Below, piece by piece: positions 1 to 53,843 of a stretch of DNA of 64,000 bases; positions within the stretch are counted from its first letter, which is position 1, and each line of letters opens with the position of its first letter. Below the pieces are notes generated by a model. That model was not told the DNA's origin. It did not search any database and worked only from the letters and a program-made list of their open reading frames with translations. The stretch comes from Mucilaginibacter sp. PAMC 26640 (GTDB taxonomy: Bacteria > Bacteroidota > Bacteroidia > Sphingobacteriales > Sphingobacteriaceae). The position numbers were made by a program, and so were the translations under genes. The stretch covers positions 3,720,001 through 3,784,000 of the forward strand of contig CP014773.1 in NCBI GenBank assembly GCA_001596135.1, read 5' to 3'.

Positions 1-295
1 ATTCCCGATAGAAACCCCTGCGCAACGTTTCAGCCTGCGATCTGCAAAAGATTTTGCTGAGCAACTCTCAGTACATGTAAACCATCTTAATCGTGCCATC
101 CGGCAAACTACCGGCAAAACCACTACCGATCATATTATGGAACGCCTGGCTACAGAGGCCCGGGCTCTTCTCCGCCACACCAACTGGAACATTGCTGAAA
201 TAAGCTACAGTCTTGGCTTTGAAGAACCCGCACATTTCAATAACTTTTTCAAAAAACAAACCAATACGACGCCATCCGCTTTCAGGGTTGTTTGA
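1..295 (+). CDS. AraC family transcriptional regulator, C-terminal part (5' end outside window)
   Basis: This is the last 97 codons of an AraC/XylS-type DNA-binding regulator, read from base 2 to the TGA at 293-295. The visible part is the double helix-turn-helix domain. The first HTH includes the stretch AKDFAEQLSVHVNHLNRAIR. The second ends in the family signature region, with IAEISYSLGFEEPAHFNNFF followed by KKQTNTTPSAFR. The sensor domain lies upstream of the window, so the ligand is unknown. It lies 81 bp upstream of two tandem short-chain dehydrogenase genes on the same strand. AraC regulators often sit beside SDR genes that they control, so it may regulate them. That link is inference. 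Confidence 0.9.
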   Translation, partial: FPIETPAQRFSLRSAKDFAEQLSVHVNHLNRAIRQTTGKTTTDHIMERLATEARALLRHTNWNIAEISYSLGFEEPAHFNNFFKKQTNTTPSAFRVV

Positions 296-376
296 ATTTT
301 GCAATAATTGGTTTGAATGCTGCAAACGGTAGCGGCTGCCTGTCCGTACTTTTGATCTATCAACAAAATCAAATTT

Positions 377-1219
377 ATGAACAACAGCAAGACATGGTTT
401 ATCACAGGTGCCTCCAAAGGTTTTGGCTTAAGCCTGGTTAAACAGCTATTACAAGCCGGGCACAACGTGGCAGCCACGTCCCGCAATTTGAATGAGCTTA
501 TAGAAGCGGTGGGCCGCCCAATCTCTGGAAACTTTTTACCGCTGCAGGTTGAACTTGGCAATGAAGACAGCGTAGGTTGTGCCATCCATCAAACAAAAGC
601 CGCTTTTAAGCAAATTGATGTGGTGATCAACAATGCAGGCTATGGCATTGGCGGTAGCATTGAAGAATTAACCGACCGAGAAACTCGCGACAGCTTTGAA
701 GTGAACGTTTTTGGCACACTAAACGTTATCCGCATGGTGATGCCTTATCTGCGCCAGCAACAGTCGGGGCATATCATCAACATTTCGTCCATTGCGGGTA
801 TCACCGGGAACGCCGGCTGGGCAGTCTACGCCGCTACCAAGTTTTCGGTTATTGGCCTCTCGGAGGTACTGGCACAGGACGTGGCCGAATTTGGTGTAAA
901 AGTAACGGTAGTAGCACCGGGTGCATTCCGTACCAGTTTCCTTAAACCAGATTCCCTCGCAATAGCCAGGCACCAGATACAGGACTATAGCCTTGTCCGC
1001 AATATCCACAACAAGTATCTGCAAATGGATGGCAAGCAAACCGGGGACCCGGAAAAGGCAGCAGCGGCCATTATTGAGGTAGCACAATCGGCACACCCGC
1101 CGCTCTACCTATTATTGGGAGAAGACGCCTTCGACCGCGCGATGGGTAAACTCGATAAACTGGAAAAAGAATTCATGCTCAACGAGGAGTTATCAAAATC
1201 TATGGCCTATCATGGCTAA
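377..1219 (+). CDS. Short-chain dehydrogenase/reductase (SDR), first of a tandem pair
   Basis: A 280-residue NAD(P)-dependent oxidoreductase of the classical SDR family, expected to be cytosolic. The Rossmann cofactor motif TGASKGFG is at residues 10-17, the NNAG motif near residue 87, and the catalytic YxxxK motif is Y151-A-A-T-K155 with the supporting serine in NISSIAG. The length is usual for an SDR. The substrate cannot be told from sequence. The next gene encodes a close paralogue on the same strand, and the upstream gene is an AraC-type regulator. The ATG at 377 gives MNNSKTWFITG, which matches the start of the paralogue and supports this start. Confidence 0.93.
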   Translation: MNNSKTWFITGASKGFGLSLVKQLLQAGHNVAATSRNLNELIEAVGRPISGNFLPLQVELGNEDSVGCAIHQTKAAFKQIDVVINNAGYGIGGSIEELTDRETRDSFEVNVFGTLNVIRMVMPYLRQQQSGHIINISSIAGITGNAGWAVYAATKFSVIGLSEVLAQDVAEFGVKVTVVAPGAFRTSFLKPDSLAIARHQIQDYSLVRNIHNKYLQMDGKQTGDPEKAAAAIIEVAQSAHPPLYLLLGEDAFDRAMGKLDKLEKEFMLNEELSKSMAYHG

Positions 1220-43942: not shown

Positions 43943-45859
43943 TTAATTTGTGCCCGGTTTAACAACCAGCACCGGTACGTTAACCTTATGTCGCACGGTG
44001 TTTACTGTTGTACCAAAAATAAGGTCCTTCAGCGCTTTATGCCCGTGCGAACCCATTACTATAAAATCTATGCCAGACTTGTTTACAATTTCTGCTATAG
44101 CTACTGCCGGGGCACCGTATCCTATTTCTGCTTGGGCATGGTAATGTAAAACTTTAAGTGCTTCCACATACTTTTCAAGGTTATTAACATCGCTTTGGGT
44201 TTCGTTGTCCATCACTTGTTTGCCATAATACCGGGCGCCTGCCGTTTCTACCACATGGATTAAGGTATAATGTGCTTTTTTACCCCCTTGCATCAGAGCG
44301 TGCCGTATGCAGTCCTGGTCGTTTTTGGAAAAATCTATGGTAACTGCAATATTATTATACTGTATCGCTTCCAAATTATCTAAAGACGCCGCTATACCGT
44401 GGGGAACGTAAGCCGGCTGATCGCTGTGTTTGTAAAGCAGCGGGCGAAGAAACACATATATGAGTAAGAGCCCAATCCCAACTACTATCGGTACCACAAA
44501 AATGTAGATGTACAGGTCGGATTGTTTACTTTCTGCAAGCCAGCCATTAACCTGGTCATAAACAAGTTTAGCGTTTAGCCCAACGATGAGGATTGCGCTC
44601 GCCCATGCCAAAATTCTTACTTTTAGGCTGATTGCAAAATCGCCCATTCGCTTTTTATCGGATGTAAAATGGATAAGGGGAATCACTGCAAAACCAAGCT
44701 GTAAACTCAGCACCACCTGACTCAGAATAATTAAACCGCCTAAGGCATCTTCGCCAAGGTATAAAATGGTGAAAACTGCGGGAACTATTGCAAATACCCG
44801 GGTAAGCAGGCGCCGCAACCAGGGTTCTATCCGCAGGTTGATGTGGCCCTCCATAATGATCTGCCCGGCAAGCGTGCCTGTAATCGTAGAACTTTGACCC
44901 GAAGCGATGAGTGCTACGGCGAACAAAACCGGCGCTATTTTTCCGAATATATGTTCCAGTAACTTGTATGCATCCTGAATCTCTGCAACCTCAAAGTAAC
45001 CATTTTTGTAAAATGCTGTCGCCGCAAGTATCAGTATGGCGGCATTTACAAAAAAAGCCAGGTTAAGGGCTATAACCGTATCAAAAAGGTTAAACTTTAT
45101 CGCCGATTTGAATCCTTCTTTTGTGCGGCTTATCTTACGCGTTTGCACCAGCGAAGAGTGCAAATAAAGATTGTGCGGCATAACGGTAGCACCAATTATG
45201 CCTATAGCGATATACAACATTTGCTGGCTTACCTTATCGTTTTTAAAAAGATTATTTGGTATAAAGCCTTTGGCAATGTCTACAACATCCGGGCCTACAA
45301 TAAACATTTCTACCAGGAACGATACCCCGATTATGAAGATCATAGAGATAATAAACCCCTCCAGCTTGCGCATTCCCTTATTCATCAGCCACAGCATCAG
45401 CACCGTATCTGTGATGGTTAACGATACCCCCCAAATGAGCGGCAGGTTAAACAGCAGTTTTAATCCGATGGCCATCCCGATGATTTCGGCGAGGTCACAG
45501 GCTATAATGGCTATTTGTGCCAATATGTAAAGCCAGAAGTTTACAAATTTGGGGTAGGCGTTCTTAGATGCCTGCGCCAGATCCAATCCGCGTACAATCC
45601 CAAGCCGCGCGGCAAGCGACTGCAAGAGTAATGCTATTAAATTTGATGCAAACAGCACCCAGATAAGTTTATAGCCAAAGGCACTTCCACCAGCCAGATC
45701 GGTAGCCCAGTTGCCTGGATCCATGTAACCAACACTGACAAGGTAAGCAGGCCCTAAAAAAGCCATCAGCTTGCGCCAGCCTTTTAGGCTCTCCGGGTTT
45801 ACCGAGCCGTGTACATTCCCTAAAGAGTGGCTATCATCATGTGTATCAGTTTTGCTCAT
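43943..45859 (-). CDS. mntH: Nramp-type Mn2+/Fe2+ transporter fused to a universal stress protein domain
   Basis: A 638-residue fusion. Residues about 30-475 form an Nramp divalent metal:H+ symporter with the metal-binding motifs D47-P-G-N50 in TM1 and M227-P-H-N in TM6, both intact, so it should carry Mn2+ or Fe2+ inward. Residues about 490-636 form a UspA domain ending in GSHGHKALKDLIFGTT, which matches the ATP-binding G-2x-G-9x-G(S/T) pattern. The metal-dependent repressor gene lies upstream with a 4-bp overlap. The Usp part may sense nucleotide or stress state on the cytoplasmic side. Confidence 0.95.
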   Translation of the reverse strand: MSKTDTHDDSHSLGNVHGSVNPESLKGWRKLMAFLGPAYLVSVGYMDPGNWATDLAGGSAFGYKLIWVLFASNLIALLLQSLAARLGIVRGLDLAQASKNAYPKFVNFWLYILAQIAIIACDLAEIIGMAIGLKLLFNLPLIWGVSLTITDTVLMLWLMNKGMRKLEGFIISMIFIIGVSFLVEMFIVGPDVVDIAKGFIPNNLFKNDKVSQQMLYIAIGIIGATVMPHNLYLHSSLVQTRKISRTKEGFKSAIKFNLFDTVIALNLAFFVNAAILILAATAFYKNGYFEVAEIQDAYKLLEHIFGKIAPVLFAVALIASGQSSTITGTLAGQIIMEGHINLRIEPWLRRLLTRVFAIVPAVFTILYLGEDALGGLIILSQVVLSLQLGFAVIPLIHFTSDKKRMGDFAISLKVRILAWASAILIVGLNAKLVYDQVNGWLAESKQSDLYIYIFVVPIVVGIGLLLIYVFLRPLLYKHSDQPAYVPHGIAASLDNLEAIQYNNIAVTIDFSKNDQDCIRHALMQGGKKAHYTLIHVVETAGARYYGKQVMDNETQSDVNNLEKYVEALKVLHYHAQAEIGYGAPAVAIAEIVNKSGIDFIVMGSHGHKALKDLIFGTTVNTVRHKVNVPVLVVKPGTN

Positions 45860-46506
45860 ATTGCAATCAGTAAATTGTTAGCCACCTCACGGCTTATTTG
45901 CAGGTCTTTATTCTCCATTTCCAGCACTACCGTATTATCATACAAAATGATCTCTTTAACCCTGATCTGCTTTCCAATGGTTAATTGTTGTTTTTCCAGG
46001 TACTGCAGAAAAATAGCAGAATGATCGCGCACTCCGGAAATTACACCCCCGGCATTAACAGAAATTGCAGAAATTGGTTTAAGATCATTTATTTTAAAGT
46101 TGCCGTTACAGTCGGGTATAGGGTCGCCATGTGGGTCACGTTTTGGGAAACCCATAAACTCATCCAGCCGGTCTATCAGTATATTGGATGATATGTGTTC
46201 CATTTCTTCGGCCATCTCGTGTACCTCGTCCCATTTAAAATTGAGCTTCTCTACCAAAAAGTATTCCCAGAGCCGGTGTTTCCGGATAATGTTCAGCGCA
46301 ACCTTTTTGCCTGCGGCAGTAAGACTTACGCCCTGGTATCTGGTATAATTGATTAACTCTTTGTCAGACAACTTGCGCAGCATATCAGTTACTGAAGATG
46401 CTTTAGTTTCCAGCGAAGCTGCAATTTGATTGGTGCTTACGCTTTCCGCAGCAGCAGCTAATTTGAAGATCGCTTTTAAGTAATTCTCCTCGGCTAATGT
46501 ATTCAT
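45856..46506 (-). CDS. mntR: DtxR/MntR-family metal-dependent repressor
   Basis: A 216-residue regulator. The N-terminal winged HTH (about 1-65) has NYLKAIFKL and NQIAASLETKASSVTDMLRKL. The dimerisation and metal-binding domain follows (about 65-130; HRLWEYFLVEKLNFKWDEVHEMAEEMEHI) with the usual E/H ligands. After the DPHGDPIPD linker the C-terminus (about 140-215) forms an FeoA/SH3-like domain. It is the first gene of an operon with the Nramp-Usp transporter (4-bp overlap). A perfect palindrome of the DtxR/MntR type overlaps its own promoter, so autoregulation and metal-dependent repression of the transporter are expected. Confidence 0.94.
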   Translation of the reverse strand: MNTLAEENYLKAIFKLAAAAESVSTNQIAASLETKASSVTDMLRKLSDKELINYTRYQGVSLTAAGKKVALNIIRKHRLWEYFLVEKLNFKWDEVHEMAEEMEHISSNILIDRLDEFMGFPKRDPHGDPIPDCNGNFKINDLKPISAISVNAGGVISGVRDHSAIFLQYLEKQQLTIGKQIRVKEIILYDNTVVLEMENKDLQISREVANNLLIAI

Positions 46507-47897: not shown

Positions 47898-47969
47898 AAA
47901 TATTAAATACAGATGTTTTATTTAGCTACAAATAACGATATTTGCACTTTGAATATACTAATACAAATT

Positions 47970-48527
47970 ATGTCGAATATAGTTAGGTTAATTATCGCAT
48001 GTGTAACAATGGGTGGCGCTGTGGCCCTTTGTGTGTTTGGTTTTTGGGGCTGGGGGATACCTTTATTTTTAATTGGCGCTTTAATACTACTGACATACTT
48101 TTTTAATGAAAATATGCTTGTAGCGCAGTATTACCTGCGTAAAGAAAAGTCGGACGAGTCTGAAAAATGGTTGTTAAAAATCACTGATTACGAGAAACAG
48201 TTATACAAAGGCCAGCATGGATATTATAACCTGTTAGTAGGTTTGATTGAATCCCGTAAGGCACCATTGAAATCTGAAAAGTATTTTAAGAAAGCACTTA
48301 GCCTTGGTATGGGGATGAGCCACAACACGGCGTTAGCCAAGTTGAGCCTCGCCGGTATTTGCATGGCAAAACGTGATAAGCGTAATGCAGAGATTTATTT
48401 AAAAGAAGCTGCTAAAGACGACAAAAATAAATTACTTGCCGATCAGATCAAAATGATGAAAGGCCAAATGTCACAGATGGACAAGCAGCAGGTAGTACGC
48501 GGAGGTTTCCGCCAGCAACGTTTTTAA
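47970..48527 (+). CDS. Membrane protein with TPR-like cytoplasmic region, unknown function
   Basis: About 185 residues. Two hydrophobic segments (LIIACVTMGGAVALCVFGFWGW and IPLFLIGALILLTYFF) occupy residues 5-45. They are followed by helical repeats with the TPR-like pattern A..YYLRKEKSDESEKWLLKI and SEKYFKKALSLG. The C-terminus is basic and glutamine-rich. I do not recognise a named family. ATG at 47970 begins directly before the first membrane segment, and an upstream in-frame ATG at 47913 is less likely. It may be a small scaffold. Confidence 0.75.
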   Translation: MSNIVRLIIACVTMGGAVALCVFGFWGWGIPLFLIGALILLTYFFNENMLVAQYYLRKEKSDESEKWLLKITDYEKQLYKGQHGYYNLLVGLIESRKAPLKSEKYFKKALSLGMGMSHNTALAKLSLAGICMAKRDKRNAEIYLKEAAKDDKNKLLADQIKMMKGQMSQMDKQQVVRGGFRQQRF

Positions 48528-49056: not shown

Positions 49057-49581
49057 CTAGTTAAATATCAATCCAGGAACGCCCACTCCAATAGCTACAC
49101 CGTAAGCAAGATCTGCCCAAAAGAATCGTAGTATATTAAAGATATATACTAACCCCACCAGCGGGAACGACACAATAGCTAGTACATTTTTGTCCTTAAC
49201 CTTTATTTTAGCTTGCTCGAAGATGTTCTTAGCATCTTGTGTGGATGGTACGGCATGCATCCCAATGGAAACCCCCAGCCACATTAAAAAGTAAGATAAG
49301 GGATGGGCTAATCCAAAGAATGTGATGGGCATATAAGCAGGGATACAAATCAGCAGGCATAATATGGTGTTTACAAAAAATGGCCCCATACTGATTAGAA
49401 ATGTGCTGTAAAAATTACTTGTATTTTCATGAATAACGTAACCTGCCGGGTTCCCTATCCGGATATAGCAAACTTCAAAAACAGCCACCTTGCGCAGCCT
49501 GCAAAAAAACAAATGTGCAAACTCATGGACTATGACGCCAGGAAATGTCAGAATAGTTATTAAAAAGCCCGGGATAAACAT
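49057..49581 (-). CDS. Membrane metalloprotease-like protein with HExxH motif
   Basis: A 174-residue integral membrane protein. The zinc-binding motif H19-E-F-A-H23 sits in the first hydrophobic segment (LTFPGVIVHEFAHLFFC). Further membrane segments lie at about 60-80, 85-110 and 130-160. D116 in PSTQDAKNI could be the third zinc ligand, as in site-2-protease-like and DUF3267-type proteins. It is much shorter than canonical S2P enzymes and has no PDZ domain. It lies 5 bp after the zinc-ribbon/TPR gene on the same strand, so the two are almost certainly co-transcribed. Its substrate is unknown. Confidence 0.75.
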   Translation of the reverse strand: MFIPGFLITILTFPGVIVHEFAHLFFCRLRKVAVFEVCYIRIGNPAGYVIHENTSNFYSTFLISMGPFFVNTILCLLICIPAYMPITFFGLAHPLSYFLMWLGVSIGMHAVPSTQDAKNIFEQAKIKVKDKNVLAIVSFPLVGLVYIFNILRFFWADLAYGVAIGVGVPGLIFN

Positions 49582-49586
49582 GTTTG

Positions 49587-50495
49587 TTATTTTGAGGTGT
49601 AGCCGTTTGGAAATTTTTTGTCGAACTGGTCTTTGCTGATAATTTGCCTGCTATCGAGCCTGTACAGAATGCGGCTCGAATAATTTTTAGCTTCGGTACT
49701 TGTATCATCAATCGCGCGGGACCTTTTTAAGTTGTAGAGTGATAATTTCTTTAATGAATCGGTGCCTTTTTGTGCATACAGGCAGGCGTATGCAGACGCT
49801 ACCCCACCCCACGAGCCCGCAAGTGTTGTATCAGCCTTTAAAAAATCTTTTGAAGAGTTCAAAAAGGCCTGGTAGTCGGCTCTGTCAAATTCCGCCCCAA
49901 TTTGTGCCTGTAATTTTAATTCTCTCAGGTGATAATCGGCTGGGAGTGAATCGCTGCACAGATTTAGTTCGACTAAACCTAGTGCTGATTTGTCTTTTGA
50001 CAGGTAGCTAATGCCTTTGTAAAAATGTGCCATATCGGCCAGTATAGTAACTTCGGGTACATTTTCACTTGCATCCTTCATAGTAGTGGCAGCTACCTCC
50101 ATTTTACCTTCAGAAAATGTTTTATTAGCAGAATTTAATTCTTGATAAGCCGCGAAAAAGCGCCAGTTCCAAAAGATAGAAAACACAACGAGCGCCAGGA
50201 CACCAGCAAAAAAAGCCTTTACCCACAATGGGAAAATTTGTTTGTTAAGATCCGTTTTGCATGCGGTACAAATATGGAATGAGCCAAGTTTTTCCAACTT
50301 ATTATCAGCAAATTCCTTTTTACATAAAGCGCAGGTGGGTATGGGAGGTTCAGCTTCTTGAGCTCCTTTTACGTGGATTTCCCCGTAGGTAAGTAACTGC
50401 TCTGAGCAAGACCTACAATAATCTTGTTGGCTAATTTGAACGGTTTGTTCCTGGGGATGCCCGGTATTACAACCGAAGCATGTAATGAGATCCAT
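49587..50495 (-). CDS. Double zinc-ribbon, single-pass membrane protein with TPR-like tail
   Basis: A 302-residue protein I cannot assign to a named family. Two zinc-ribbon modules lie at the N-terminus: C6-x2-C9 with C27-x2-C30, and C55-x2-C58 with C76-x2-C79. A transmembrane segment (about 90-111, WVKAFFAGVLALVVFSIFW) follows. The rest (about 115-295) is helical and resembles TPR repeats (FYKGISYLSKDKSALGLVELN). The ribbons would face the cytoplasm and the helices the periplasm, or the reverse. The next gene, 5 bp downstream, encodes the HExxH membrane protein, so a two-component membrane unit is likely. Confidence 0.75.
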   Translation of the reverse strand: MDLITCFGCNTGHPQEQTVQISQQDYCRSCSEQLLTYGEIHVKGAQEAEPPIPTCALCKKEFADNKLEKLGSFHICTACKTDLNKQIFPLWVKAFFAGVLALVVFSIFWNWRFFAAYQELNSANKTFSEGKMEVAATTMKDASENVPEVTILADMAHFYKGISYLSKDKSALGLVELNLCSDSLPADYHLRELKLQAQIGAEFDRADYQAFLNSSKDFLKADTTLAGSWGGVASAYACLYAQKGTDSLKKLSLYNLKRSRAIDDTSTEAKNYSSRILYRLDSRQIISKDQFDKKFPNGYTSK

Positions 50496-50626
50496 AGTTT
50501 AATCGTGATAAGGTTACTCACATATTTTACCTAAATATTAGGTTCATATGCTAAATGTAAATATATCAAAATTTAACAACAAAAAACACTGACTATGGAA
50601 AAGAAATATTTATTACCATTTATCAA

Positions 50627-50660
50627 AAAACGAGGTGCCAAAAATATAGCACCTCGTTTT
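50627..50660. terminator. Terminator downstream of lysS
   Basis: Perfect 12-base arms AAAACGAGGTGC (50627-50638) and GCACCTCGTTTT (50649-50660) with a 10-base loop. For lysS, read on the minus strand, the hairpin is followed by TTTTTTGATAAA. It begins 38 bp after the lysS stop. Confidence 0.85.
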
Positions 50661-53219: not shown

Positions 53220-53843
53220 ATGAGAACCAAAGTAGACCTGGCCACCTGGCCACGAAAAGAACATTTTACTTTTTTTAATAGTTTTGACGAACCCTATTTC
53301 AGCGTTAACGCAGATGTGGATTGTACCATAGCTTACCAACGTGCAAAGGAGCAAAATGTGTCCTTTTACCTGTATTATCTTTATTGTGCCATTACAGCTA
53401 TCAACGCTATTGATAGTTTTAGATATCGTGTAATCGACGGAGAAGTATTTATTTATGATCAAATAAACGTTACTCATATTGTGCTCAGGCCTAACGATAC
53501 CTTTGGCTTTGGCTTTGTGGAATTTAAGCCAACGCTGGCAGAGTTTATAGCCGATGCGCAAAAGGAAACCGACCGTATATTAAGCACTTCAGGGCTTGAT
53601 TTGAGTATTCCCGGGGATAATATAATTCACTTTTCGGCCATGCCCGGCATCAAATTTACCGGCTTAACACATGCCCGCAGTTTTTCCTACAAAGACAGTT
53701 CTACTAAAATTTCGGTTGGAAAAGTTACAGAGGTTGATGGCAGACGGATGATGCCCGTATCGATAGCCGTACATCACGGACTGACTGATGGCGTTCATGT
53801 AGGGCGCCTTATAAATCTTTTTCAGGAGATTTTAGATCGGTAA
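53220..53843 (+). CDS. Chloramphenicol acetyltransferase-like protein (CatA family)
   Basis: A 207-residue member of the type A chloramphenicol acetyltransferase family. The hallmark HHxxxDG is present as H185-H-G-L-T-D190-G in SIAVHHGLTDGVHVGRL. The N-terminus WPRKEHFTFFNSFDEPYFSV also fits. True resistance enzymes are close in length, but chromosomal homologues in Bacteroidota often act on other acceptors, so resistance should not be assumed. It lies 1 bp after the HAD gene on the same strand and is presumably co-transcribed. Confidence 0.9.
   Translation: MRTKVDLATWPRKEHFTFFNSFDEPYFSVNADVDCTIAYQRAKEQNVSFYLYYLYCAITAINAIDSFRYRVIDGEVFIYDQINVTHIVLRPNDTFGFGFVEFKPTLAEFIADAQKETDRILSTSGLDLSIPGDNIIHFSAMPGIKFTGLTHARSFSYKDSSTKISVGKVTEVDGRRMMPVSIAVHHGLTDGVHVGRLINLFQEILDR

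Follow-up and report, generated by a model that had tools for sequence, protein, structure and literature searches.

A small site-2-type protease gene and its ribbon–helix–TPR neighbor: a widely conserved pair that may encode a two-subunit membrane protease

Two adjacent genes of Mucilaginibacter sp. PAMC 26640 may encode a single membrane complex, in which a minimal site-2-type zinc protease is joined to a dedicated non-catalytic partner that recruits or gates its substrate; we put the probability of this reading at about one half. The genes lie in the window, the 64,000-nucleotide stretch analyzed here (contig CP014773.1, positions 3,720,001 to 3,784,000), whose own numbering is used throughout unless another locus is named. 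Rather more tentatively, the pair would represent a widespread and previously undescribed two-subunit intramembrane protease, with a minimal site-2 core and a ribbon/one-helix/TPR subunit that both supplies the rest of the substrate gate and chooses the clients. It would have stayed together in at least 12 phyla and evolved into a single-ribbon and a double-ribbon version. What would be new is the broadly conserved partner architecture for an S2P-type protease, itself a known type.

As the original prediction had it, the two genes are 5 bp apart on one strand (Table 1), the partner first and the protease second, downstream, on the minus strand. Upstream on the same strand is a class II tRNA synthetase gene (identified by Pfam), presumably lysS. 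Because a strong hairpin separates this gene from the pair, the latter is probably its own transcription unit. The hairpin went unreported in the terminator pattern scan, and no RNA features were found at the locus at gathering thresholds. Elsewhere in the window, an ORF at 47967–48527 (+) without a Pfam match has a hydrophobic N-terminus followed, by eye, by TPR-like helices, and is retained near the pair in Mucilaginibacter sp. OK268 (locus L010); another, at 53220–53843 (+), belongs to the chloramphenicol acetyltransferase family (PF00302, E = 3.3e-27).

Table 1. Coordinates of the gene pair, its predicted features and its surroundings in the window, with the basis for each assignment.
Feature	Coordinates	Strand	Basis
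Protease ORF, DUF3267-like small S2P-like membrane metalloprotease, 174 aa	49057..49581	-	ORF
Putative distal Pro/Asp motif, HAVPSTQD (109–116)	49234..49257	-	Alignment
S2P-type GPxxxN motif, GPFFVN (66–71)	49369..49386	-	Aligned to GGxxxN of RseP-type proteases
GYVIH (47–51) with invariant H51, on the second strand past the HExxH helix	49429..49443	-	Strand in both models; aligned to GGYVK, RseP-type
Predicted catalytic zinc motif, HEFAH (H19–H23)	49513..49527	-	HExxH in 80/80 loci (best 80 of 139 relatives)
Intergenic spacer, 5 bp	49582..49586	.	
Partner ORF, double zinc ribbon + one membrane helix + TPR-like helices, 302 aa	49587..50495	-	ORF, alignment A4 (75 partners)
TPR-like helical domain, limits by analogy with modeled relative L021	49611..50162	-	L021 model matches TPR structures
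Single membrane helix, from about the PLWVK motif, near residues 90–108	50172..50228	-	Hydropathy
Ribbon 2 (Cys 55, 58, 76, 79)	50259..50333	-	Invariant in 75/75 aligned partners
Ribbon 1 (Cys 6, 9, 27, 30), double-ribbon clade only	50406..50480	-	Cys in 27–29/30 clade-1 rows vs. 0/42 clade-2 rows
Strong hairpin, probable terminator, between tRNA-synthetase gene and pair	50626..50660	.	Minus-strand fold: -23.7 kcal/mol, z -7.97

The pair is widely conserved, patchy in its distribution, and not a feature of the Sphingobacteriaceae. Single-protein queries against 60 genomes, the window's own included, found the protease in five and the partner in four; on inspection, the fifth (L004) has a diverged partner adjacent to the protease. 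An alignment search of 149 Mucilaginibacter genomes placed the protease in 16 and the ribbon–helix core in the same 16, adjacent in every case and always on the same contig and strand, the core ending approximately 492–495 bp (4 genomes) or 743–760 bp (12 genomes) upstream of the protease. For the family Sphingobacteriaceae, whose sample overlaps with that of the genus, strong protease and strong partner matches occurred in the same 18 of 341 genomes, all adjacent. These family counts are of strong matches: from the 19 protease and 21 partner matches listed, 18 each were kept, and those dropped (one and three) are a 30-residue fragment and matches interrupted by stops. In the phylum sample the protease was listed in 23 and the partner in 10 of 395 genomes, with strong matches to both only in the window's genome (G000) and G004; the others were partial matches or weak ones (E no better than 1.8e-11 for the protease and 6e-5 for the partner), as with a 35-residue protease match in G101. 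Damaged copies also occur: a stop lies inside the G700 protease match, and the partner core of G533 sits in a 124-aa frame.

We then scanned one genome per species for 84,980 species and took the best 80 of 139 relatives, among which the pair spans 12 phyla, many of them by way of metagenome-assembled genomes. Contig ends cut three loci (L022, L033, L074), which left 77 of these 80 with enough upstream sequence. A ribbon-bearing ORF (at least two CxxC/CxxxC motifs) lies directly upstream of the protease in 75 of the 77; the two exceptions are L046, where the ribbon is in another frame, and L059, where the adjacent ORF is the TPR part only and ribbonless. The gap between the genes in these 77 loci has a median of 10 nt and is at most 30 nt in 72, with overlap in 17; the other five gaps measure 66–269 nt. 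Adjacency in related genomes, which the proposed functional pairing called for, is thus seen at the level of the genus, the family and the phyla. Across the Sphingobacteriaceae sample, strong matches to the two genes are always paired, few of the genomes carry them, and the pair reaches far beyond the family.

A more distant protease relative is encoded on a haloarchaeal plasmid (L124 3929–4540, “metalloprotease family protein”; 31% identity). It keeps HExxH, GYVxH and HAFPSxxD and has no annotated ribbon or TPR neighbor, which argues that the enzyme type does not always need this partner and that the partnership is particular to this clade and not shared by all its kin. An origin in a mobile element or phage was rejected, as no relatives were found in viral contigs or phages and plasmids yielded this haloarchaeal one. 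A role in anti-phage defense was also set aside, with PADLOC matches to neither of the two window proteins at E ≤ 0.1.

A tree of 79 proteases divides into two groups, each with support of 100/100, comprising 31 rows (including the window) and 48 rows. Partners of the first group mostly have two ribbons and those of the second have one; exceptions in the first are L025 (one ribbon), L031 (truncated) and L010 (degenerate first ribbon). In L010 (4089–4994), the closest relative, ribbon 1 has lost two of its four Cys columns and ribbon 2 is intact. Both versions are present within Mucilaginibacter. Protease and partner distances are correlated (r = 0.81 over 72 pairs; 0.69 and 0.73 within the clades), and none of 2000 permutations reached a value as high; as shared ancestry alone would give such a correlation, it shows co-inheritance, not contact. 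Of the alignments used, A3 holds 78 of the 80 loci plus the window (without L022 and L077), A4 holds 74 plus the window (without L022, L033, L046, L059, L074 and L077), and A6 holds 72 of A4's 75 rows.

The downstream gene had been described as encoding a 174-residue membrane protein with HEFAH and a candidate third ligand, D116. The protein has several hydrophobic segments, and D116 is the invariant distal Asp. Conservation of the HExxH histidines, a test set beforehand, is complete (80 of 80 loci): H19, E20, H23 and D116 are identical in all 81 aligned proteases (best 80 of 139 relatives plus the window). Other residues invariant in the 81 include C27, H51, G66, P67, N71, S105, P112 and S113 and, toward the C-terminus, P140, W155, D157, Y160 and P169; H109 is found in 77, with N or Q in the other 4. 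Conservation inside the scan patterns TFPG[VI]IVH and FFW[LA]DLAY, that of H19, W155, D157 and Y160 included, partly reflects how the relatives were picked, and H23, H51, G66, P67, N71, P112, S113 and D116 lie outside them.

Judged from the alignments and from two joint models described below (L021 and L045), the order of HExxH, GYV strand, GPxxxN and a distal Pro plus Asp is that of site-2 proteases. HExxH lies in a helix in both models, with two strands after it, and a distal Asp with a nearby Pro is named as a site-2 protease hallmark in the main text of PMC13252029. In an hhalign comparison with 12 RseP-type proteins the HExxH, GYV and GxxxN blocks aligned in the same order (E = 8.4e-4, probability 24%). 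Unlike those M50 proteases, the window protein has 174 rather than about 440 residues, with no room for PDZ domains, and its distal motif is of the form HAxPSxxD instead of NxLPIPxLDGG. The window protease scores 19.7 bits against PF11667 (DUF3267; cut-off 27.1, E = 0.0011). Of five partnered relatives scored individually, L045 and L029 also miss the cut-off, whereas L051 (36.9 bits), L061 (28.3) and L087 (27.6) pass it; we therefore call the window protein DUF3267-like and, on sequence grounds, of site-2 type, rather than a filed family member. DUF3267 matches 73 of 79 proteases from the best 80 of 139 relatives at E ≤ 0.01 (best 3.7e-10), and when a very thin profile was compared against three canonical DUF3267 proteins of Bacteroidota, the result was non-significant (E = 0.15, probability 0.4%). 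PF02163 (Peptidase_M50) also falls below its cut-off (12.3 vs. 27.2 bits, E = 0.11), and by sequence the top match in the PDB is aq_1964, a zinc metalloprotease of Aquifex (E = 0.36). The suspected tie to site-2 proteases and DUF3267 is therefore supported by the motifs and by the relatives over the cut-off, but not by the window protease's own score. The motifs suggest that the protein would be proteolytically active. The window's genome also contains a second M50-like protein beside the RseP-type one (G000:C2:4349667–4350239; 22.5 bits, under the Pfam cut-off).

The partner has the two CxxC..CxxC ribbons and single predicted membrane segment originally ascribed to it. The four cysteines of ribbon 2 are its only invariant residues among 75 aligned partners, and hydropathy gives one membrane segment in 73 of these and none above threshold in 2. 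The last ribbon Cys stands only about 10 residues ahead of the membrane segment, and a conserved PxW motif lies between the two. Positive-inside counts of K and R favor the N side in 34 partners, are equal in 21, and are lower on that side in 20. TPR-like helices, also ascribed to the partner, find support in its relatives: TPR_19 matches 44 of 75 partners (best 1.4e-16), and the modeled L021 and L045 proteins have what is, by structural comparison, a TPR fold. In VIA-align, for which Z under approximately 13 can be non-specific for helical repeats, the TPR region of L021 matched 6px0 best (Z 11.3, rmsd 3.0 Å, 119 aligned) and that of L045 matched 8qoy best (Z 12.0, 1.1 Å, 68 aligned), and also 3q47_B (Z 11.6, 1.3 Å, 65 aligned). 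The window partner itself, however, has no Pfam TPR match.

Among the matches listed, Pfam and NCBIfam return only generic TPR or weak matches for the partner, and NCBIfam gives nothing beyond such matches for either protein. PF18912 (DZR_2) scores below its cut-off on the window partner (12.6 vs. 27 bits, E = 0.13), and PsbJ and the other weak Pfam matches were rejected as chance matches. The NCBIfam LapB model matches 3 of the 75 partners, in our reading via shared TPRs. The upstream ORF is only 157–191 aa long in six loci (L045, L049, L060, L068, L077 and L088, of which L077 looks frame-broken). As the model of the short L045 partner retains a ribbon, the helix and a short TPR-like region, these look like the core of the partner.

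For joint modeling we used AlphaFold2 on relatives whose two genes share one frame, read through one stop codon. The L021 pair (double ribbon, 503 aa), in which residues 303–331 form a disordered linker, was modeled with pLDDT 92.0 and pTM 0.80, and the L045 pair (single ribbon, short partner, 338 aa) with pLDDT 89.6 and pTM 0.84. Both pTM values exceed the ceilings estimated by formula, with assumed PAE values, for parts left unplaced relative to each other (0.56–0.67 for L021, 0.47–0.58 for L045), so a physical complex of protease and partner is likely on this measure and contact is supported in both clades. The model alignments contained 85 rows (A5, for L021) and 46 rows (A7, for L045); in A5, the C-terminal ends of 22 partner-only rows were misplaced onto protease columns. 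TPR chains took up the Foldseek and VIA-align lists for the fused models and have no bearing on the protease fold; site-2 proteases do not appear in these lists, which should not be read as a sign that the fold is missing. LapB was among the Foldseek matches of the L021 fused model.

Within such a complex, the partner would be a fixed, non-catalytic subunit. Because eight cysteines favor the reducing side, the ribbons would fold at the cytoplasmic face, beside the active site. The single helix may pack on the small protease core in place of the extra gating helices that larger site-2 proteases have, by analogy with TmcE, and the TPR domain may hold a client protein, so that the partner recruits or gates the substrate. 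A close precedent is described in a 2026 preprint, according to whose main text the DUF3267 protein TmcP resembles mjS2P and is a site-2 protease needing an escort, TmcE (PMC13252029). Cleavage was abolished when the catalytic His and distal Asp of TmcP were mutated together, and TmcE, a two-helix escort required for cleavage, was modeled where gating helices would be (PMC13252029). TmcP/TmcE and the present pair alike have a short protease of the S2P clan, belonging to PF11667 or close to it, together with a membrane partner of its own that is non-catalytic and, in the case of TmcP, required for cleavage. In contrast to TmcE, nearly all partners here have one hydrophobic segment instead of two membrane helices, and the terms “zinc ribbon” and “TPR” are absent from the main text of that preprint. 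Its authors suggest, from TmcE, that other DUF3267 proteases with four helices may be subject to analogous regulation (PMC13252029).

The best functional analog of the partner is LapB. This protein (also YciM) has one membrane helix, TPRs and a rubredoxin module; its helix is needed to bind FtsH and its cytoplasmic part recruits a client to FtsH, as described in the text of PMC13333357. In both cases a protein with a helix, TPRs and a metal-ribbon-type module stands alongside a membrane protease. The order differs, however, with ribbon(s), helix and TPR in the partner as opposed to N-terminal helix, TPRs and C-terminal rubredoxin in LapB, and the TPRs of LapB are cytoplasmic and FtsH is an AAA+ protease. 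BofA and SpoIVFA, which are inhibitors, are not known to be ribbon–TM–TPR proteins, unlike the partner. They resemble it as membrane partners of a site-2 protease: SpoIVFB is controlled by these two small proteins, one of which occupies the active-site cleft (PMC9042235). Since they can block the cleft, the partner could possibly act as an inhibitor as well.

The main rival to a fixed subunit is a partner that is itself the substrate. The ribbon domain would then be released as a regulator, and a signal would have to remove the TPR ectodomain before cleavage could proceed, after the logic of RseA or SREBP. An inside N-terminus with one membrane pass is the right shape for a site-2 substrate, and the partner would fit if its N-terminus lies inside; that four ribbon cysteines are its only invariant residues also speaks for a released domain. 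Nevertheless, cysteines so close to the membrane, together with the PxW motif, are easier to reconcile with a part docked at the membrane than with a factor to be set free. Of the families that match partners, neither the best 25 of 46 in Pfam nor the 24 in NCBIfam include a DNA-binding one, and the partner is placed as a folded subunit in both joint models, although a bound substrate could be placed in the same way. On balance we consider this rival unlikely. For regulated intramembrane proteolysis proper, suggested in the original prediction, no substrate, signal or site-1 step was found.

Another reading makes the protease a quality-control or maturation enzyme for a specific exported or membrane peptide, with the partner as peptide escort. 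The precedent is again TmcP, which removes a leader peptide and needs TmcE, from an operon that encodes a precursor, a transporter and disulfide-forming proteins (main text of PMC13252029). No such set is found among the recurring neighbors here. We clustered flanking ORFs of at least 90 aa and annotated the ten most recurrent families by representatives; no third gene is common to the loci, the top family (sigma-70 type) occurring in 9 of 81 neighborhoods and the next in 7, and small ORFs (30–89 aa, looked for up to 800 nt away) recur in 3 of 80 loci at most. A precursor could be encoded elsewhere, but we consider a quality-control or maturation enzyme of this kind improbable. Flanking genes common to several loci are shared mostly between close relatives (25 families listed). 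A fixed sigma-factor partner was considered and rejected, since the sigma-70-type genes are mostly at least 1.4 kb away and five of the nine are in related loci. In L046, L047, L050, L053 and L057, a sigma-70-type gene (Pfam-confirmed in L050) and a Pfam-less neighbor lie 1.4–3.2 kb upstream on the other strand. L004 has another membrane-like ORF, bearing HELTH, directly upstream of the pair (2–439, minus strand), divergent from it and cut by the locus end; it has no Pfam match over 2–349.

Co-transcription of two genes whose products never touch is very unlikely in light of their matching presence and absence, their matched clades and the two high-pTM joint models. Metal (zinc) sensing, also raised originally, and a supply of zinc from the ribbon protein to the protease are both hardly credible: zinc-ribbon sites do adjoin a zinc enzyme, and a gene for a FeoA-domain iron-dependent repressor (45856–46506, minus strand) lies about 2.5 kb off the pair, but the zinc in CxxC..CxxC ribbons is normally structural, and the ten annotated neighbor families, the most recurrent ones, include no metal genes.

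A literature search, with subscription papers mostly outside its reach, found no description of the pair among the papers listed. By term count, the available text of a review of site-2 proteases (PMC10202637) contains none of “zinc ribbon,” “TPR,” “DUF3267” or “Bacteroid-.” In our judgment it is largely open how substrates are selected by, and gain entry to, small site-2 proteases that have neither PDZ domains nor gating helices. The pair would be a second and much wider case after TmcP/TmcE, with a different partner architecture, and it points to a partner protein that has only generic TPR or weak matches listed in Pfam and NCBIfam. As it occurs in culturable bacteria that are not pathogens (Mucilaginibacter, Pedobacter, Chitinophaga), the idea of a two-subunit protease is directly testable.
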